A stretch of DNA of 64,000 bases from Halothermothrix sp. (lineage in GTDB: Bacteria; Bacillota; Halanaerobiia; DY22613): the NCBI GenBank assembly GCA_016841825.1, contig JAENYK010000003.1, positions 310,001 to 374,000 on the forward strand, read 5' to 3'. Below the pieces are notes generated by a model, which was given only the letters and a program-made list of their open reading frames with translations, was not told the DNA's origin and ran no database searches. The position numbers were made by a program, and so were the translations under genes. Shown piece by piece: positions 6,032-19,609 of the stretch (positions within the stretch are counted from its first letter, which is position 1; each line of letters opens with the position of its first letter).

Positions 6032-7018
6032 TTAATCCTTATATTTAACATCTATCGCATCTTTCTTACACTTAGTATAGCAGATGCCACACTTGATACA
6101 GATCTCCGGATCTATCTCATGCATCTTCTTAACTTCACCCTTAATCGCATCAACAGGACAGACTTTTGCACATAAAGTACATCCGATACAGTTATCATTA
6201 ATTTTAATCTCTTCAATTTTGGCACCATCGAAGTCAATCGTCCCCATTGGGCACTTCTCTGCACAGAGGCCACAATTAATACACTTATCATACAGCATAA
6301 TCGCCAGATTATCTTTCATCTCAATCGCACCCACTGGGCAGTTTTTGGCACAGATTCCACAGCCGATACAACCCACTTTACATACCTGACGCACTTCTTT
6401 ACCGTTCAGATATGCCGAACAGCGAATATGGTTTTTGCGAGTTTCACCAACCAGAGAGATAATCGCCTTTGGACAGGCTTCTACACATTTACCACAACCG
6501 GTACACAGTTCAGGGTCAACTATCGGCAGATTATCATCACTCATCTTGATCGCACCAAATGGACAGACATCACTACAATCACCAAATCCTAAGCATCCAT
6601 ATTCACATCCCTTGCTACCACCACCTACAGCAGTAGCAGCTTTACAGGTTTGAATACCCCGATATTCAGAACGTTGAGTGGCTGCAGAACTACCACCTTT
6701 GCACATAACCTGAGCAATCATTCTCTCTCCAGTTGCACAGCTAACACCCATGATCTCGGCAATTTTTGCTGCACCTTCAGTACTATTTACTGGGCAGCCG
6801 CCACACTCAACATTACCTTCTACTACAGCATTAGCAAAACTACTACAACCCGGAAAACCACAACCGCCACAGTTTGCACCTGGTAAACAGGCTTCAATCT
6901 CTTCAATCCGTGGATCAACCTCTACAGCAAATTTCTTTGATGCAATCGCCAGTCCGGTAGCAAAAAAGGCACCTAATGCACCCATACTTACCAGAGCCGA
7001 AATATATAAATTAGCCAC
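6032..7018 (-). CDS. rnfB: RnfB, multi-[4Fe-4S] ferredoxin-accepting subunit
   Basis: 328 residues from a GTG start (GGAGGTGACC upstream). An N-terminal membrane anchor (~5-26) is followed by the RnfB four-cysteine motif CLPGANCGGCGFPGC (Cys44, 50, 53, 58). A chain of ferredoxin motifs follows: CEYGCLGFGDCSDVCP, CTGCGKCVEACP, CIGCGICAKNCP, CINCGLCAEKCP, CIGCTLCAKVCP and CIKCGICYTKC. The extra C-terminal clusters are typical of clostridial and acetogen RnfB rather than the short gammaproteobacterial form. RnfB takes electrons from reduced ferredoxin and passes them into the Na+/H+-pumping complex. Last gene of rnfCDGEAB. Confidence 0.96.
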   Translation of the reverse strand: MANLYISALVSMGALGAFFATGLAIASKKFAVEVDPRIEEIEACLPGANCGGCGFPGCSSFANAVVEGNVECGGCPVNSTEGAAKIAEIMGVSCATGERMIAQVMCKGGSSAATQRSEYRGIQTCKAATAVGGGSKGCEYGCLGFGDCSDVCPFGAIKMSDDNLPIVDPELCTGCGKCVEACPKAIISLVGETRKNHIRCSAYLNGKEVRQVCKVGCIGCGICAKNCPVGAIEMKDNLAIMLYDKCINCGLCAEKCPMGTIDFDGAKIEEIKINDNCIGCTLCAKVCPVDAIKGEVKKMHEIDPEICIKCGICYTKCKKDAIDVKYKD

Positions 7019-11481: not shown

Positions 11482-11510
11482 AAATAACAAAGGAGCAGAA
11501 AGCTGCTCCT
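11482..11510 (-). terminator. Terminator of mrp
   Basis: AGGAGCAG and CTGCTCCT form an eight-base perfect stem with a four-base loop (11491-11510), followed on the minus strand by TTTGTTATTTT. The first stem bases overlap the mrp stop codon. Confidence 0.8.
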
Positions 11511-12282
11511 AATGTTTTATCTCAATCCAATTTTCTATAATTGTTTTAACCCAGTCATCATTCGACATTTTATACTCTTCGATCAATCCAAGATCCGTCA
11601 ATTTAGTCATTTCTGGATCAATGGGTAACCTGGTCAAGAAAGGAATCTCTATCTCGTTAGCTATAGATTCTCCTTTTCCTTTCCCAAAAATCTCAATTTT
11701 GTTTTCACAGTGAGGACAGATAAGATAGCTCATATTCTCCACCAGACCCAAAATCGGAATCTCTAACATTTTTGCCATCTTTACAGATTTTTTGACCTCC
11801 ATATAGACCAAATCCTGCGGTGATGACACCAGAACAATACCATCTACAGGAATAGACTGCATAACTGTCAAAGGAACATCTCCTGTTCCGGGAGGAAGAT
11901 CTAAAACCAGATAGTCCAGTTGATTCCAGACCACATCTGACCAGAACTGACGTACAGTTCCTCCCATTAATGGACCACGCCAGATGATTGGATCATCTTC
12001 ACTCTCCAGCAAGAGGTTTACCGACATAACTCCTATCCCTGTTTTGGTACGTAAAGGAAACAGTCCCAGATCAGTCTGTTCAGGATGTCCCTGAATCCCA
12101 AACATCTTCGGAATACTTGGCCCTGTAATATCAGCATCCATTAAGCCTACTTTGTAACCCAATCGATTTAAGGTTACAGCCAGAAGAGCAGATACAGTAG
12201 ATTTACCCACTCCTCCTTTGCCACTCATCACTGCGATAACTTTTTTTATCTCACTTAAATCGTTCAACTTTTCCTTTTCCAT
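11509..12282 (-). CDS. mrp: Mrp/NBP35-type P-loop ATPase, Fe-S cluster carrier
   Basis: 257 residues. Deviant Walker A MSGKGGVGKSTVSALLAV near residue 19, DADITGPSIPKMFG, LDLPPGTGDVPLT, and a CPHC metal motif near residue 189 are the ApbC/Mrp signatures. Such proteins bind a bridging [4Fe-4S] cluster and hand it to apoproteins. It is about 90 bases downstream of two MinD/ferredoxin ATPases and a NifX-like gene, a set resembling the anaerobe orange-protein (ORP) loci, which also contain an Mrp homologue. Confidence 0.93.
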   Translation of the reverse strand: MEKEKLNDLSEIKKVIAVMSGKGGVGKSTVSALLAVTLNRLGYKVGLMDADITGPSIPKMFGIQGHPEQTDLGLFPLRTKTGIGVMSVNLLLESEDDPIIWRGPLMGGTVRQFWSDVVWNQLDYLVLDLPPGTGDVPLTVMQSIPVDGIVLVSSPQDLVYMEVKKSVKMAKMLEIPILGLVENMSYLICPHCENKIEIFGKGKGESIANEIEIPFLTRLPIDPEMTKLTDLGLIEEYKMSNDDWVKTIIENWIEIKH

Positions 12283-12372: not shown

Positions 12373-13275
12373 TTATTCTATCAGAGAGATTACCTTCCGA
12401 TATATCTCTTTTAATGCCTGTAAAGTTCGATCTTCTCCATCTCCCTGATTCAATAATTCCCAGAGAGTCATCTCCAGGCAGATTGCTTCTGTAACCCGTT
12501 TATCGAATGGAATCTGTCCTACCACTTCTACCTCATTTTTCTGGCAATAAATGATAATTTTTTGTGTCATCTCCCGATTAAGATCTGCCTTATTGATACA
12601 GACCACACAATTTACCGTGAAATGTTTAGCCAGATCTAAAACCCGTTCCAGATCATGCAAACCGGAAACAGTAGGCTCAGTTACGGTAAGGGCCAGATCT
12701 GTTCCAGAGAAAGAAGAGATGACTGGACAACCTATACCCGGAGGTCCGTCCACAATTAGCAGTTGACGTTCTTCTCTTTCACCGATCTCTCTGGCTGTGG
12801 TCAAGACTTTGGTCACTAATTTACCCGAATTTTCTTCACCTATTCCTAATTTCGCATGAATCAATGGCCCAAATCGGGTATCAGAAACAAACCATTCTCC
12901 ACAAAGATTGTTATCAATATCAATTGCTCCCGTAGGACACACATATCTACACAGAGTACACCCTTCACAGAGCATTGGATCAATCTTTACTTGGGTATCC
13001 CAGAATAAAGAATCCAGTTCAACCTGGATAGCTTGAAAACGGCAGTGAGTGACGCATTGATGACACTGACTACATTTTGAAGGATTAATTTTCGCCACCT
13101 TTCCACCATAAAAATCATGCACTTCCAGGACATCAGGATTCACAACCAGATGTAGATCGGCAGCATCTACATCACAATCGGCCAGAATTATTTCTTTGCT
13201 CATAGCTGCCAACGAAGCTGTCAGAGACGTTTTGCCGGTCCCACCCTTACCACTAATCACTAATAGCTGCTTCAT
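12373..13275 (-). CDS. MinD-superfamily P-loop ATPase with inserted ferredoxin domain (first of tandem pair)
   Basis: 300 residues. Walker A SGKGGTGKTSL at residues ~8-18 is followed by two [4Fe-4S] motifs (CSQCHQCVTHCRF and CEGCTLCRYVCPTGAID) over ~63-118, then LLIVDGPPGIGCPVISS. This is the COG1149-type architecture (ORP3/ORP4-like). In Desulfovibrio such ATPases associate with orange protein, which carries a Mo-Cu-S cluster. The start codon overlaps the stop of the next gene upstream, indicating translational coupling. Cluster insertion or ATP-driven redox is inferred, not shown. Confidence 0.88.
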   Translation of the reverse strand: MKQLLVISGKGGTGKTSLTASLAAMSKEIILADCDVDAADLHLVVNPDVLEVHDFYGGKVAKINPSKCSQCHQCVTHCRFQAIQVELDSLFWDTQVKIDPMLCEGCTLCRYVCPTGAIDIDNNLCGEWFVSDTRFGPLIHAKLGIGEENSGKLVTKVLTTAREIGEREERQLLIVDGPPGIGCPVISSFSGTDLALTVTEPTVSGLHDLERVLDLAKHFTVNCVVCINKADLNREMTQKIIIYCQKNEVEVVGQIPFDKRVTEAICLEMTLWELLNQGDGEDRTLQALKEIYRKVISLIE

Positions 13276-14180
13276 CAGTTCATCCCTTCCTTATTTGCAC
13301 AGACCGCCATAAATAGTTGAATAAAGGCTTTCTGCAGATCGGGGAATTGATCCACCAATAAATCACCCCTGGCATAACAACTGGCATACTCTCTGTTAAA
13401 TGGGATCCGCAATAATATAGGAATATCCATCTCCCGACAAAAATCTTCCACAGAAATATCCCCTCCGGAAGAAAGCAAATCTGCCCGATTAATCACCACC
13501 CCACAGGGAATCTGCATTTTTTGCACAACCTCATATGCTAATTTTAAGTCATTTAAACCAAAAGGTGTTGGCTCAGTGACCAGAATAACATAATCTGCTC
13601 CGTAAAGACTAGAGACAACTGAGCAAGAGGTTCCCGGAGGAGCATCAATGATTGTTAATTTATCCTGGTCAATTGCTTCTTTTAATTGTTTAATAATCGG
13701 AGGTGCTAAAGGTGTTCCAATTTTTAGTTCACCCTGCAAAAACTCCATCTTGCCTATCTTTCCTTGATCAATCCAACCAATAATCCGCTGAGATTCAGAG
13801 ATAGCATGGGCTGGACAGATAAAACTACATCCTCCGCAACCATGACAGAGTTCCGGAAAGATCAAAATACTTCCTTTGATATAGGCCAGAGCATTATAAA
13901 CACAAAATTCACTACATCTGGCACACTGGATACATTTTTCTCCATCAACTTCCGGAATACTAATATATACCTCTTTACGCTCTAATAACTCAGGTCTGAG
14001 GAAAAGGTGAGAATTTGGCTCTTCGACATCACAATCGATAAGTTGAATCATCTCCTGGGGAATCCTCAAATCTCCATCTTCTCTGGACAAAGCTCGGGCC
14101 AGATTGGTAGCAATAGTCGTCTTTCCTGTACCTCCTTTTCCACTGGCCACAACTATTGTCAGATTACTATTCACTCCCAT
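13275..14180 (-). CDS. MinD-superfamily P-loop ATPase with inserted ferredoxin domain (second of tandem pair)
   Basis: 301 residues if started at the ATG at 14180 (MGVNSNLTIVV), preceded by AAAGGAAG; the frame is open seven codons further. Walker A SGKGGTGKTTI, ferredoxin motifs CIQCARCSEFCVYNA and CHGCGGCSFICPAHAI over ~75-125, then TIIDAPPGTSCSVVSS. It is a paralogue of the neighbour at 12373-13275, and the two probably act as a heterodimer as proposed for ORP3/ORP4. It overlaps the NifX-like gene by 14 bases. Confidence 0.88.
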   Translation of the reverse strand: MGVNSNLTIVVASGKGGTGKTTIATNLARALSREDGDLRIPQEMIQLIDCDVEEPNSHLFLRPELLERKEVYISIPEVDGEKCIQCARCSEFCVYNALAYIKGSILIFPELCHGCGGCSFICPAHAISESQRIIGWIDQGKIGKMEFLQGELKIGTPLAPPIIKQLKEAIDQDKLTIIDAPPGTSCSVVSSLYGADYVILVTEPTPFGLNDLKLAYEVVQKMQIPCGVVINRADLLSSGGDISVEDFCREMDIPILLRIPFNREYASCYARGDLLVDQFPDLQKAFIQLFMAVCANKEGMN

Positions 14181-14508
14181 CTTCCTTTCCCATTTGACCA
14201 TGATTAAACTTCTCGATAACGGTTGCTATTGTACCGGTAATTCCTTCATAGACCCGTACTTTGCCCGTCTCTAATCCACGCATAGCCTTTGGTCCTACAC
14301 GTCCTGTCAAGACAGCTTCTGCCTGAAGATCTACCACCTTCTGTGCACTCTGCACTCCAGCACCAGAATCTGCATTTACCCCTGTGTTTTCGATAAATTC
14401 AACATCGTTGGTTGTAGAATCAACCAGAGCAAAATACTTGCATCTGCCAAACCGAGGATCAACTTCCGAATTTAGAGAATTATCTTGAGCTGTTATAACA
14501 ATCTTCAT
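14167..14508 (-). CDS. NifX/NifB-type dinitrogenase iron-molybdenum cofactor-binding family protein (orange-protein-like)
   Basis: 113 residues with the fold signature MKIVITAQDNSLNSEVDPRFGRCKYFALVD, then VQSAQKVVDLQAEAVLTGRVGPKAMRGLE, typical of the small NifX/MTH1175/ORP family, which binds metal-sulfur clusters. No nitrogenase genes are visible, so a nitrogen-fixation role is unlikely. It overlaps the DUF5320 gene upstream by four bases (ATGA) and the MinD-like ATPase downstream by 14 bases, within one operon. Confidence 0.88.
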   Translation of the reverse strand: MKIVITAQDNSLNSEVDPRFGRCKYFALVDSTTNDVEFIENTGVNADSGAGVQSAQKVVDLQAEAVLTGRVGPKAMRGLETGKVRVYEGITGTIATVIEKFNHGQMGKEDGSE

Positions 14509-14807
14509 GCTTCTTTCCCTTCCTTATCATCAGATTTATCTGCAATCCGCTCCAGAATTCCAGTTAGACCATTTACCTGTTCTTTAAGACTATTCACCTG
14601 TTTTGTTAACTCTTCTAACTCGTAATTATCCATCTCAGCAGAAAAATTAGCTCCTCTTCCATAACCACGATTTCTAAATCCATTCCTCAGACCTCTACAA
14701 CCAGAAAATCTTCCCATATTTCCTTGATATGGTTGAATACAAAAACCTCTTCCTCTTCCTGTCATTGCCCCCTGCCCCATAGGTCCAGTTCCATCATAAC
14801 CTGGCAT
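14505..14807 (-). CDS. DUF5320 family protein, first gene of ORP-like operon
   Basis: 100 residues. The N terminus MPGYDGTGPMGQGAMTGRGRG is the DUF5320 hallmark. It is followed by a Gly/Arg-rich stretch and a C-terminal coiled coil (ELEELTKQVNSLKEQVNGL). Function unknown; the family recurs beside NifX-like and MinD/ferredoxin genes in anaerobes. The start at 14807 is fixed by AAGGAGG nine to ten bases upstream. Its promoter (14853-14881) is the best sigma-A match in the window. Confidence 0.85.
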   Translation of the reverse strand: MPGYDGTGPMGQGAMTGRGRGFCIQPYQGNMGRFSGCRGLRNGFRNRGYGRGANFSAEMDNYELEELTKQVNSLKEQVNGLTGILERIADKSDDKEGKEA

Positions 14808-14837
14808 TTGTTTGGCCTCCTTATAATATATTTTGAG

Positions 14838-14881
14838 CATATGCCCATTACTATTATAAAATTATTTTGGGCATATGTCAA
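14838..14881 (-). promoter_or_regulatory. Consensus sigma-A promoter with flanking inverted operators
   Basis: Minus strand: TTGACA (14881-14876), 17 bases, TATAAT (14858-14853), both perfect. An inverted repeat brackets it: GGGCATATG at 14869-14877 touches the -35 and spacer, and CATATGCCC at 14838-14846 covers the expected start site. Each arm is itself part of a near-palindrome around CATATG. A promoter this strong flanked by symmetrical sites suggests tight repression. The adjacent DUF134 regulator is the obvious candidate, by location only. Confidence 0.8.
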
Positions 14882-14904: not shown

Positions 14905-14931
14905 ATTTTTGCAGAAAAATTCTGCAAAAAT
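14905..14931. terminator. Perfect 12-base-arm palindrome (terminator or operator)
   Basis: Arms ATTTTTGCAGAA and TTCTGCAAAAAT with a three-base AAA loop. It lies about 25 bases upstream of the DUF5320 promoter. It could end the DUF134 transcript (minus strand), though the GC content of the stem is low, or serve as a protein-binding site. Confidence 0.45.
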
Positions 14932-15203: not shown

Positions 15204-15620
15204 TCAGGACGGTTCGATCTCTTCTAAAGGATGCCCACATTCAGGGCAATCAGTGATCTCTTCTTGATCTCCGGTCACATTAGACTCTTCATAAACCTCA
15301 TCACAGTGGCGACAGCGTTTTCTGCGGTGTCCCAGATAAAAATCTCCACCTTGAAAACGAATCGCTTTCCCACAGATCAAAGCATCAGAGATTTTACTTC
15401 TGGCTTCCTGCAAAATCCGCTGAAAAGTAGCTCTCGATACCTGCATCTTCTCAGCACATTCCTCCTGCATCAATCCCTCCCGATCTTTTAGGCGAATAGC
15501 CTCGACTTCTTCGATGGTCAAAACCACCTCTTCTAATTCACACATCGGTACTGCTGCCGGTTTAAAATATTTGACTGCAGGAATAAATTCTACTCTTCTC
15601 TCTTTTGGTGGTCTTGGCAT
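15204..15620 (-). CDS. DUF134 family HTH regulator with C-terminal zinc ribbon
   Basis: 138 residues. [21 protein letters not shown] is the typical DUF134 N terminus. A sigma-70 region-4-like helix-turn-helix ([21 protein letters not shown], then [16 protein letters not shown]) spans ~40-95. The C terminus carries CRHC...CPECGHP, a zinc-ribbon or rubredoxin-like site. The ATG at 15620 has GAAGAGGAG upstream; the frame is open eight codons further from TTG. It lies 0.4 kb upstream of the ORP-like operon and just downstream of the hydrogenase-type regulatory module. Likely a DNA-binding regulator; its target is inferred. Confidence 0.86.
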
Positions 15621-15770: not shown

Positions 15771-16316
15771 TTAATCAATCAACTTACCTTCCAATCCCTC
15801 TATTAGATCATTTTGAATCGCCTCCAGAACCATTGGATGATTCAGCGGCACACCTGCTAATTCCTCACGGATATATCTGGTGGACAGTCCATATTCACCA
15901 TTATCACATCTATAGGTGAATAGAAAATCTACATCGGGATTCCCCTGAATCAAAGTAATCATGGTTGAGATGAGATCACCCATCGGAGTCCTATCTATAT
16001 GACTGAGTTTGAAACTGGCGGTCACCACTGTCCCCTTACCTTCTTCCGACTTTAGAATAAAACCACCCTCAGCCCGCTCTGCAGCATCTTTAAACAGAGG
16101 TAAACCTAAGCCCACCCGACGGGTTGTCCTGGTGGTAACAAAAGGATCTAAGACATCCTGAGTCATCTGTTTTGACATCCCCTCACCATTATCCTCAATA
16201 GTAATACTCAATTCATCTCGTTCTGTGCAAATCTCGATCATGATCTGCACCTCACTAGCTCTGGCTCGCGTTGAGTTCTGAACTATATCCAGTATATGTA
16301 AAGACAGTTCACGCAT
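15771..16316 (-). CDS. HATPase-domain protein of hydrogenase-type regulatory module
   Basis: 181 residues of histidine-kinase-like ATPase fold without a phosphoacceptor domain: N-box LDIVQNSTRARA near residue 9, G1 box IEDNGEGMS near 40, G2 VGLGLPLFKDAAERAEGG near 68, GKGTVVTASFKL near 96. It closely resembles the ATP-binding region ATPase proteins encoded next to multisubunit [FeFe]-hydrogenases in clostridia and Halanaerobiales. The start is supported by AGGAGGGG. 25 bases separate it from the DRTGG gene. It may act as an anti-sigma-like kinase; the partner is unknown. Confidence 0.82.
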   Translation of the reverse strand: MRELSLHILDIVQNSTRARASEVQIMIEICTERDELSITIEDNGEGMSKQMTQDVLDPFVTTRTTRRVGLGLPLFKDAAERAEGGFILKSEEGKGTVVTASFKLSHIDRTPMGDLISTMITLIQGNPDVDFLFTYRCDNGEYGLSTRYIREELAGVPLNHPMVLEAIQNDLIEGLEGKLID

Positions 16317-16341
16317 TATAAGCCCCTCCTATAGTGTAGAA

Positions 16342-16674
16342 CTATTTGACTCCCGCTGAGTGTAACTGACATGCCAATTGATAACTATTGGCTTTAGAAG
16401 TAAAGATATTAATCCCTTCCTCCCTGGCTTTCTCCAACATATTTTGTGCTGGTGCTACCCCGCTGGCGATAATGATTCCAGATAAATTTAACAATGCTGC
16501 CACGGCGATGATATTCTGATGACCCTGGATCGTGATCCAGATATTACCGTTTTTCGCCTGAGCCATCACCTGGCTTAACAGATCACCAATATAACCACCA
16601 GTAACTTCCCGTTCCAAATCAGAGTCCACCTCGACCTTTAGTGGAACAGATTCTATGATCTCGCTTAATCTCAT
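16342..16674 (-). CDS. DRTGG-domain protein (short form)
   Basis: About 110 residues beginning MRLSEIIESVPLKVE. The frame also opens three codons earlier at GTG, but that codon is too close to AAGGGTGG. The sequence (ITIQGHQNIIAVAALLNLSG, then IIIASGVAP) fits the small DRTGG-domain proteins that accompany CBS/HATPase proteins in [FeFe]-hydrogenase loci. Role unknown; possibly ligand sensing. It lies between the CBS-HATPase and HATPase genes. Confidence 0.78.
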   Translation of the reverse strand: MRLSEIIESVPLKVEVDSDLEREVTGGYIGDLLSQVMAQAKNGNIWITIQGHQNIIAVAALLNLSGIIIASGVAPAQNMLEKAREEGINIFTSKANSYQLACQLHSAGVK

Positions 16675-16689
16675 CCGTATCACCCACCC

Positions 16690-17631
16690 TTAATTAATAT
16701 TAATGATAGCTGTCACTGTAGTACCCTCTCCGGGAATGGATTCAATCATCAGTTCATCAGACCAACGTTTCATATTATATAATCCCATTCCGGCACCAAA
16801 ACCCAACTCCCGTACGTGTTCGGAAGCAGTCGACCAGCCAGGTTCCAGTGCCAGATCAATATCACAGATGCCTGGCCCTTCATCGACAATAATTATTTTA
16901 ACAAAATCAGGAGTAACCAGTACTGTCATTGTCCCACGATAAGCATGAATCACCACATTCACTTCAGCCTCATAACTGACCACAGCCACTTTGCGTAAAA
17001 AGATTGGGGAATAACGTCCAGTATCTGCCAATGTTCGTTTCAAATTACTGGATGCTTCACCAGCCTGACTAACATCGCCACCTTCAATCACAAAATTTAA
17101 CACGAATGCTTTGCTTTCATCAATGTTAACATCATTCTCAAAACCTTTGACTTTTCTCACTGTTCGTTCAGTCTGCTGCTGAACCATATGATTCTCTAAA
17201 ATTTGCAACAAACGAACCAGAATGTCCCCAGGTGTAATTATTCCCTTTAATACCCTATCTTTATCAACAACAGGAAATCGTCCATATTTATTCCGTTTAA
17301 ACTGTTTTAATACTTCAATAATTGATTGATCTTCTAAGACTGTTACTACTTTACGAGTCATATACTTACTAATCGCAGCTTCCAAATCCCGTATCTCCAG
17401 ATAATGAATAATGTCGTCAATACTGATAATACCTTCAATTCTATTTTCATTATCTACAATTGGAATACCTGAGATTTTTTTTAGCCGCATAATCTCTTTC
17501 GCCTGAATCACTTTCTGCTGAGGATAAAGTGTTATTACATTATAAGTCATTACATCTTTAGCTTTTAATTCACTGGCTAATTCAGCAATTAGTGGTGAAT
17601 CTATTGGATAAATATCCCGGTCGTCAATCAT
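16690..17631 (-). CDS. Tandem-CBS plus HATPase (anti-sigma-like) protein
   Basis: 313 residues. Two CBS domains (~25-80 and ~88-145: VMTYNVITLYPQQKVIQAKEI; KYMTRKVVTVLEDQSIIEVL) are followed by a HATPase_c domain (~190-313) with IIIVDEGPGICDIDLALEPG, GFGAGMGLYNMKRWSDEL and GEGTTVTAIIN. CBS pairs commonly bind adenine nucleotides, so energy sensing coupled to an RsbW-like kinase is plausible. It overlaps the preceding DRTGG gene by eight bases and has GGAGGGAC ahead of its ATG. Confidence 0.85.
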   Translation of the reverse strand: MIDDRDIYPIDSPLIAELASELKAKDVMTYNVITLYPQQKVIQAKEIMRLKKISGIPIVDNENRIEGIISIDDIIHYLEIRDLEAAISKYMTRKVVTVLEDQSIIEVLKQFKRNKYGRFPVVDKDRVLKGIITPGDILVRLLQILENHMVQQQTERTVRKVKGFENDVNIDESKAFVLNFVIEGGDVSQAGEASSNLKRTLADTGRYSPIFLRKVAVVSYEAEVNVVIHAYRGTMTVLVTPDFVKIIIVDEGPGICDIDLALEPGWSTASEHVRELGFGAGMGLYNMKRWSDELMIESIPGEGTTVTAIININ

Positions 17632-17992
17632 CCCTGTCCCTCCATTCTATACAACCTCGTACACCTTGACCAAAAAGAAGTCCACAGGACTCAAATAATG
17701 GAAGATCGGTCATTAATAAAGGAATATCCTTCTCTTTAGCTAATCGAATCGCATTCTGATCAGGTTTCTTACCGCGAACAAAAATCACCGCATTGAGATC
17801 CATTAACTCAGCAGTACGGATAACCTGACTCTGAGTTAAACCTGTCAAAAGTAAGGTTTTCTCTTTGGTATATGCTAAAACATCACTCATTAAATCTGCA
17901 CCACAGGCGATTTTAATCTCCATTTCCAGTGCCGTGGTATCACCTACTATAACCTTCGCGTCTAATAATTTTGCGATATCTCCTAATTTCAT
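17624..17992 (-). CDS. DRTGG-domain protein, first gene of the module
   Basis: 122 residues from MKLGDIAKLLDAKVIVGD; AGGAGGG lies eight bases ahead of this ATG. The DRTGG fold is seen in MSDVLAYTKEKTLLLTGLTQS and LNAVIFVRGKKPD. The open frame runs 16 codons further, but that part lies across the insertion-sequence junction at 18017/18018 and is not native. The insertion sits only about ten bases upstream of the ribosome binding site, so the four-gene module is separated from its likely original promoter near 19956-19984. Confidence 0.82.
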   Translation of the reverse strand: MKLGDIAKLLDAKVIVGDTTALEMEIKIACGADLMSDVLAYTKEKTLLLTGLTQSQVIRTAELMDLNAVIFVRGKKPDQNAIRLAKEKDIPLLMTDLPLFESCGLLFGQGVRGCIEWRDRDD

Positions 17993-18169
17993 GTAATTAA
18001 CCCTCCTAAATTTTTCCGTATTGTCAAAAGTTTTTAACAACTTTTAACCCTAAACCATTAATACTATTAACTTTTTTTATAAAAAACTTGCTCCCCCCCC
18101 CTCATTTTGAGGTATTTTAAAGTTATCACCACCCAAAATCCCAAAAAAGGAGAAAAGGAGGAGCAAACC

Positions 18170-19609
18170 TTGAACAAAATAATTACCATCTTATTCTCAT
18201 ACATTCAACTTCAACAAAGAATCATTGTATATCTTATTGGATCGCTGATAGGTAAGCATATCACTCGGAAAATTTACGATGAACCAATTAACAAACCCTA
18301 TCGAAAACTTCAGGTTGACAAACTACCCATCATTGAAACACTTGAAAAACTCGACTTTAAGCAACTACTCATTGATTACGAAACTACTAAAGGTAAACCA
18401 CTCAAACCTGTTAAGCCACATAAGAATAGTAATGCCCGTGTTCCCAATACCCTTACCTGCCCTAAATGTGGTGCACCCCATAATTATCTTTACGATAACA
18501 CTGGAGGTCGTGGACAATTCAAGTGTAAGATCTGTGGGTGTCTATTTAACTTTAAAAACTATTACTCTAAGGCTGCTATTCTCAAATGTCCCTATTGCTC
18601 TAGACTACTCACAAAGAAGAAAGAGCGTAAAGATTTTCACATCTTCAAGTGCATCAATGATCATTGCTCACTTTATCTACACAATCTCGCTACTATGTCT
18701 AAATCTGATAAAGAGTGCTTTAAAGTAGCACCTCATGAGTTTAAAGTTCGCTATATCCATAGACAGTTTAACTTTGATTTTAAGCCTTTGAGTAAGACTG
18801 GCCCTGTAGTGCCTAACGTCGATCTTTCCAGGATCTATGCTCCCACACATACCTTAAGCTTGATCCTTACTTACCATGTTAATTTTGGTTTGTCATCCAG
18901 AAACACTGCTTCTATTATGCAGGATGTTCATGGTGTGAAGATCTCACACCAGACAGTTTTAAACTACGCTGAGGCGGTAGCCACTATCATTAAGCCCTTT
19001 ATTGATAACTACCCTTACGATCTTTCTAACTCTTTCTGTGGTGATGAAACATACATCAAGGTTAACGGTAAGTGGCAGTATGTCTTCTTTTTCTTTGATG
19101 CAGTCAAAAAGATCATCCTTGCCAACAGAATATCTCCCAATAGAGACACTCTATCTGCAATCAAAGCTATGGATGATGTTCTATCCAGGCTTAAAGAGAT
19201 TCCAGATGATCTGTCTTTTGTTGTTGATGGCAATCCAATTTATGTCCTGGCCCAACATTACTTCGCTCAACATGGTTTTCATTTTGACGTTAATCAGGTC
19301 ATTGGATTAACCAATGAAGACCCGGTCTCTAAAGAGTACAGACCGTTTAAACAGATCATTGAGCGACTTAACAGGACTTACAAACGCAGTTACAGAACAA
19401 CCTTTGGGTTTAAAAGTCCTGATGGCTCTATTGCCTTCACTACTCTATTCACTGCATACTTCAATTTCCTGAGACCACATTCTTCTCTGGAAAAATCTGT
19501 TCCGGTAGCTTTACCTGAGCTGGGTAACTTACCTAATATGCCTGCTCGATGGGCAACACTGCTTAAGATGGCTGAAGATTATCTTGTTGATCTACAGCAG
19601 ACAGAATAA
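18170..19609 (+). CDS. DDE transposase with N-terminal zinc-ribbon motifs
   Basis: 479 residues if translation starts at the TTG at 18170, which has AGGAGGAG upstream; the frame is also open from TTG at 18107 without a site. N-terminal cysteine pairs (CPKCGAPH, CKICGC, CPYCSR) form zinc-ribbon-like DNA-binding modules over ~80-180. The catalytic core (~290-440) shows a DDE pattern: Asp in FCGDETYIKV, Asp in SFVVDGNPIY, Glu in KQIIERLNRTYKRSY. An rve/IS6-like fold is the best guess, but the protein is longer than classical IS6 transposases, so the IS family is left open. No frameshift seen. Confidence 0.88.
   Translation: MNKIITILFSYIQLQQRIIVYLIGSLIGKHITRKIYDEPINKPYRKLQVDKLPIIETLEKLDFKQLLIDYETTKGKPLKPVKPHKNSNARVPNTLTCPKCGAPHNYLYDNTGGRGQFKCKICGCLFNFKNYYSKAAILKCPYCSRLLTKKKERKDFHIFKCINDHCSLYLHNLATMSKSDKECFKVAPHEFKVRYIHRQFNFDFKPLSKTGPVVPNVDLSRIYAPTHTLSLILTYHVNFGLSSRNTASIMQDVHGVKISHQTVLNYAEAVATIIKPFIDNYPYDLSNSFCGDETYIKVNGKWQYVFFFFDAVKKIILANRISPNRDTLSAIKAMDDVLSRLKEIPDDLSFVVDGNPIYVLAQHYFAQHGFHFDVNQVIGLTNEDPVSKEYRPFKQIIERLNRTYKRSYRTTFGFKSPDGSIAFTTLFTAYFNFLRPHSSLEKSVPVALPELGNLPNMPARWATLLKMAEDYLVDLQQTE

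Follow-up and report, generated by a model that had tools for sequence, protein, structure and literature searches.

Introduction

The closest described counterparts of the locus analyzed here are the orp operons of Desulfovibrio, which consist of genes for MinD-type ATPases with ferredoxin domains and for a Nitro_FeMo-Co (ORP/NifX) protein. In Desulfovibrio vulgaris these operons are transcribed by sigma-54 with the activator DVU2106 and IHF (PMC3897727), and a related Mrp protein, MrpORP, has been described on the Desulfovibrio side (PMC6345978). The window studied here, a 64,000-nt stretch of the Halothermothrix sp. genome, carries an operon that is alike in gene content, with MinD-type/ferredoxin ATPases and a Nitro_FeMo-Co protein, but it has a sigma-A-type promoter before its first gene, with candidate operators over the -35 hexamer and +1. 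A control logic different from the sigma-54 operons had been suggested in the first-pass annotation, and, judged by the perfect sigma-A-type promoter before the first gene, this contrast with D. vulgaris (PMC3897727) appears to hold.

Next to the operon lies a gene encoding a member of the DUF134 family (UPF0251, COG1342; PF02001). Of the 398 genomes sampled from the phylum, 261 encode such a protein above the family cut-off; the family extends to other phyla, and the accessible literature gave no published function for it. In line with the first-pass annotation, which had noted no known operator for DUF134, no operator or regulon of DUF134/UPF0251/COG1342 is described in that literature, though an earlier prediction may exist in regulon databases or subscription papers. 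PMC7565180 mentions DUF134 as no more than an entry in a list; two other papers retrieved as DUF134 papers (PMC8459023 and PMC10434189) were rejected, as they are prefix matches that concern DUF1343/DUF1349. Here we propose an operator and a regulon, which would make this anonymous family a testable regulator. Judged from sequence, the two sites at the promoter are very probably operators of the adjacent DUF134 protein, which would act as a dimeric repressor of the DUF5320-NifX-MinD/Fer4-Mrp operon.

Organization of the DUF5320 Operon

All genes of the operon lie on the minus strand. A ribosome-binding site, AAGGAGG (14816..14822, read from the sequence), precedes the first gene, which encodes a DUF5320 protein of 101 aa (14505..14810; PF17253, E 4.8e-16). 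It is followed by genes for a NifX/COG1433-type protein with a Nitro_FeMo-Co domain (14167..14508; PF02579, E 3.5e-22), a MinD/ParA-type ATPase with a 4Fe-4S ferredoxin domain (13275..14177; PF10609 and Fer4 models), a second MinD-type ATPase with a 4Fe-4S ferredoxin domain (12373..13275; PF01656, PF00037) and an Mrp/NBP35-type ATPase (11509..12282; PF10609, E 3.7e-94). The MinD-type ATPases with Fer4 and the Nitro_FeMo-Co protein, as recognized by Pfam profiles, bear out the earlier description of the operon as ORP-like. The Mrp/NBP35-type ATPase resembles MrpORP without the ORP domain, and scores 349 bits against NF041136, under the cut-off of 450. Its gene is likely to be part of the DUF5320 operon transcript, and a terminator-like hairpin (11491..11510, minus strand, pattern only) lies 3' of it.

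The DUF134 gene (15204..15620, minus strand) lies upstream of the operon, and a second terminator-like hairpin (14905..14931, minus strand, pattern only) is found between it and the operon promoter. Farther upstream, beyond DUF134 and again on the minus strand, is a cluster of HATPase, DRTGG and CBS-HATPase genes (15771-17995), a putative signalling module of which at least the first gene is also present in a genome of the same family but another genus (G001). It is adjoined by a long open reading frame that reads like an IS-type transposase (18107-19609).

A Consensus Promoter Overlapped by Two Palindromes

The perfect sigma-A promoter reported by the first-pass annotation is readily identified on the minus strand: TTGACA (14881-14876), a spacer of 17 nt and TATAAT (14858-14853) match the consensus at 12 of 12 positions. 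It is the only perfect TTGACA-N17-TATAAT in the 64 kb window, where base composition predicts 0.03. The nonamer CATATGCCC occurs exactly at 14838-14846 (plus strand) and 14869-14877 (minus strand). With at most one mismatch it was seen 12 times against 11.5 expected, a chance-level frequency on its own, and the significance of the two sites therefore comes from their position and conservation.

Each nonamer belongs to a longer, imperfect palindrome of 14 bp, the core of which, CATATG, is self-complementary. The predicted operator site 1, TTGACATATGCCCA (14868..14881, minus strand), contains the -35 hexamer, which is kept in relatives, and the predicted site 2, TGGGCATATGCTCA (14834..14847, minus strand), extends over the expected transcription start and the first transcript bases. 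The centres are 34 bp apart, and the palindrome common to both sites is T[T/G]RRCATATGYYCA. Both nonamers thus stand where the first-pass annotation had placed them, but as two full palindromes rather than one inverted pair; they only appear inverted because the CCC-bearing arm points inwards in both. A single long inverted repeat or loop was rejected as a reading of the nonamers, since both sites are palindromes complete in themselves and their spacing varies among relatives.

Sites placed over the -35 and the start are most simply read as occluding RNA polymerase. Occupation of site 1 would mask the built-in -35 hexamer and that of site 2 would cover the start site, which would deny RNA polymerase a promoter that, left free, has consensus strength; repression is suggested here by the position of the sites. 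Position alone leaves some room for DUF134 binding the same sites as an activator, for example by promoter remodelling, but we consider this improbable, as the sites overlap the -35 and +1, and as the near-consensus -35 and -10 hexamers with 17-nt spacers should require no activator.

Conservation of the Motif in Related Genomes

In G001, the only other genome of the order in the comparison set, the promoter and both sites are kept before DUF5320, while the rest of the intergenic region has changed. The genome of the window itself holds a second paired promoter; it precedes a solitary NifX-like gene whose start lies 345 nt downstream of site 1. A search with TTGACATATGYYCA over the class matched 59 places, spread over 37 of the 59 genomes, with one match of the reversed control; over the phylum, 117 of 398 genomes have matches, with 14 reversed-control matches (hand count of the table).

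The loci around these class and phylum matches (for the phylum, those among the matches listed) were compared after removal of sequence duplicates, which left 193 distinct places. Genes were called by a simple script and assigned with HMMs built from the window proteins, of which the ParA class is broad. Among the matches listed, 139 of the 193 places precede DUF5320, NifX/COG1433, ParA/MinD-type or DUF134 genes on the same strand, with DUF5320 downstream of 85, NifX of 67, ParA/MinD-type of 65 and DUF134 of 27. The first downstream gene, again among the matches listed, is DUF5320 at 67 of the 193 places, NifX at 25, ParA at 17, DUF134 at 15 and another gene at 55, with none at 14. Of the remaining 54 places, some fall within coding sequence and probably match by chance.

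Alignment of the 139 places (among the matches listed) yields TTATTGACATATGYYCATAA with a -10 hexamer at +23 to +28, outside the search pattern. Among these matches, a second site follows the first at 75 of the 139 places, compared with 5 of the 54 others, mostly at a distance of about 34-35, 39 or 43-44 bp; many promoters have the first site only. Of the layout for a dimeric or looping repressor that had been envisaged earlier, an obligatory fixed-phase loop is unlikely given this variable spacing. In sites that lie away from the -35, most arms read TGARCA, so that site 1, with its TTGACA, seems to strike a compromise between operator and -35 sequence.

A sample of DUF5320 genes chosen blind to the motif supports the association. 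The best 30 loci were taken, of which two were dropped for too little upstream DNA, and in 20 of the 28 others the 250 bp upstream contain a site when one mismatch is allowed (controls: 2 of 27 downstream windows and 0 of 280 shuffles at the same threshold). All 17 of the TTGACA-bearing sites among them are followed by a -10 hexamer (at least 4 of 6 positions) at a spacer of exactly 17 nt. Across class and phylum the sites are kept before the same genes, which answers the call for a search of relatives in the first-pass annotation. Given this conservation and the unselected gene samples, we reject chance as an explanation for the sites at this promoter.

Other Genes Preceded by the Motif

First downstream genes that belong to none of the cluster families were grouped by BLAST, and one representative per group was compared with Pfam. 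They encode Fur-family proteins (9, one BLAST group), metallo-beta-lactamase-fold proteins (6), NhaC-type proteins (5), pyridine-nucleotide disulfide oxidoreductases (3), TauE (2), DUF364/DUF4213 (2) and C_GCAxxG_C_C (1). The Fur-family genes, several of them followed by NifX/ParA, raise the question whether their product is the cognate repressor. We regard this as highly unlikely: most motif-bearing operons do not begin with the Fur gene and that of the window lacks it, DUF134 is tied to the palindrome in several phyla, and the palindrome is not known to resemble a Fur box. The Fur genes look rather like members of the regulon.

The regulon proposed for DUF134 would comprise DUF5320, NifX/COG1433, MinD/Fer4 and Mrp genes and, occasionally, Fur, TauE, C_GCAxxG and the heavy-metal-chelation DUF364. 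This offers a way to ask what the ORP/NifX-type iron-sulfur and molybdenum-cluster genes, so far poorly understood, respond to. The nature of the other first genes points to a metal, sulfur or redox signal. The same direction is weakly indicated by a UPF0251 gene insertion, listed in PMC5886521 among adapted rex-deleted Thermoanaerobacterium strains. We propose that a signal related to what the operon encodes (an iron-sulfur or molybdenum cluster, a metal, sulfide or the redox state) would make the repressor leave the DNA and lead to strong expression of the operon.

The motif also precedes a gene for a DsrK-like protein (L195) and a DUF1858-nitrite/sulfite reductase gene (L191; L197 is similar), a hint at sulfur metabolism.

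The DUF134 Protein

The DUF134 protein of the window (138 aa; PF02001, E 6e-24) scores 84.9 bits against a curated cut-off of 27. It combines a sigma-region-4-like helix-turn-helix (HTH) with a C-terminal zinc-ribbon-like tail; the DUF134, sigma-r4/ECF and zinc-ribbon models all match, as expected from the first-pass annotation of this neighbour as an HTH plus zinc ribbon protein. At least two CxxC motifs are present in 61 of 93 DUF134 sequences. The enterobacterial and Elusimicrobia DUF134 proteins are without the zinc ribbon, which is therefore dispensable for the association with the motif.

Structural modeling from a three-sequence alignment gave a mean pLDDT of 66 and is confident only for approximately residues 31-90, where the predicted HTH consists of helices 36-47, 52-58 and 63-83 (pLDDT about 90). 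R63 and T65 are conserved in all of the 93 sequences. Fold comparison returned sigma-4-like structures with Z values reaching 7.9, a level at which a common arrangement may also account for the match. The HTH accordingly falls by structure comparison into the fold class of sigma factor region 4, but in contrast to sigma factors DUF134 has no other sigma regions and is proposed to read a palindrome. An archaeal transcription factor of solved structure (8hno/8hnp) also matches the fold of the HTH, and is absent from the sequence-search results for it.

By sequence, the nearest HTH in the PDB is that of the DeoR/SorC repressors (7bhy, 8r7y; profile E 1.5e-4). Unlike these, DUF134 has no large C-terminal effector domain and ends in a short tail or zinc ribbon; no SorC/DeoR C-terminal sugar-binding domain was found in the 138-aa protein, which matches the DUF134, sigma-r4/ECF and zinc-ribbon models only. 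We propose that a DUF134 dimer would bind each CATATG-centred palindrome through its sigma-region-4-like HTH, the predicted target being DNA that carries TTATTGACATATGCCCATAA.

Association of the Palindrome With DUF134 Genes

DUF134 was found above the cut-off in 44 of 59 genomes of the class and, as given above, in about two-thirds of those of the phylum. Over the 398 phylum genomes, motif and DUF134 co-occur (105/12/155/126, p 3e-12, for related genomes that are not independent). Within the DUF5320-positive genomes, equally related, the two are not significantly associated (91/4/103/8, p 0.39). Since only 12 DUF5320-positive genomes are without DUF134, co-occurrence was dropped as proof for DUF134. 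Motif-positive genomes without DUF134 number 12 of 117 in the phylum and 4 of 37 in the class; one genome scored as such (G304) has a fragmented DUF134 gene beside the site.

The location of the site before DUF134 genes is stronger evidence for DUF134 as the regulator than co-occurrence. When DUF134 genes were chosen by protein similarity alone, all 15 had a site with at most two mismatches within 150 bp upstream, compared with 3.3% of shuffles and 12 of 569 other windows. The 15 loci, several of which are related gammaproteobacterial plasmids, comprise two Elusimicrobia and 13 plasmid records, the latter taken from 189 DUF134-matching records and chosen for different organisms, and belong to Bacillota, Pseudomonadota, Bacteroidota, Spirochaetota and Elusimicrobiota. 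In both Elusimicrobia GTTATTGGCATATGCCAATAAC abuts the start codon of the DUF134 gene, and no other site within two mismatches occurs in the 12 kb of either locus. The core varies to CATTTG in both Bacteroidota records and to CAAATG in the spirochaete and one Bacillota record. A search for DUF134 in phages gave no match.

The genome of the window encodes a second, divergent DUF134 protein (G000:C38:222035-222316; L322 about 6036-6329), its gene followed by a NifX-like gene. This gene and its G001 counterpart (L323 about 3789) have TGTGCATATGCACA between the -10 hexamer and the start codon, with the CATATG core kept and different arms. A stricter palindrome test was positive for 12 of 17 genes of the protein-only sample (the 15 and two paralogues), versus 1 of 26 in a phylum sample and 1 of 30 in a class sample. 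Near-perfect sites (at most one mismatch) were found upstream of none of the 30 class DUF134 genes and of only 7 of the 26 phylum genes, and nothing similar to CATATGCCC lies upstream of the DUF134 gene in the window. Autoregulation is therefore not general, and DUF134 seems often to be expressed without it, as in the window.

Operators of ArsR/SmtB or SorC/DeoR type can resemble TGAACA...TGTTCA, and TGAACATATGTTCA resembles those of ArsR/SmtB. Another HTH repressor, such as an ArsR/SmtB-type metal sensor or a SorC/DeoR-type protein, might therefore read the sites, with DUF134 a mere passenger of the cluster. One TGAACATATGTTCA, a palindrome of like shape, is found where a SorC/DeoR-like gene of this genome starts (L317:1500-1520); it probably serves the encoded regulator as its operator and gives rise to false matches. 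The HTH of DUF134 is itself nearest by sequence to DeoR in the PDB. We nevertheless hold a different repressor to be unlikely, as the CATATG palindrome stands before all 15 DUF134 genes of the protein-only sample in five phyla, and as no ArsR gene was seen in the BLAST groups of first downstream genes from other families than those of the cluster (by reading) or among ten Pfam-scanned representatives.

Taking DUF134 as the reader of the palindrome, a wider generalization is possible, though we put it forward tentatively and with some doubt: DUF134 proteins may be widespread metallocluster- or redox-sensing repressors that read DNA with a sigma-region-4-like head and whose half-site (TGRRCA, TTGGCA, TTGACA) resembles the -35 hexamer so closely that operator and -35 merge in a single sequence, for which repressor and sigma-A compete, with paralogues keeping the CATATG core and varying the arms to stay separate.

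Enterobacterial and Aeromonadales plasmids (L303, L305, L313-L315) carry DUF134-NifX modules. Most of these modules include a PaaI thioesterase gene, and genes for a SLAC1 channel or for Dps accompany some of them.
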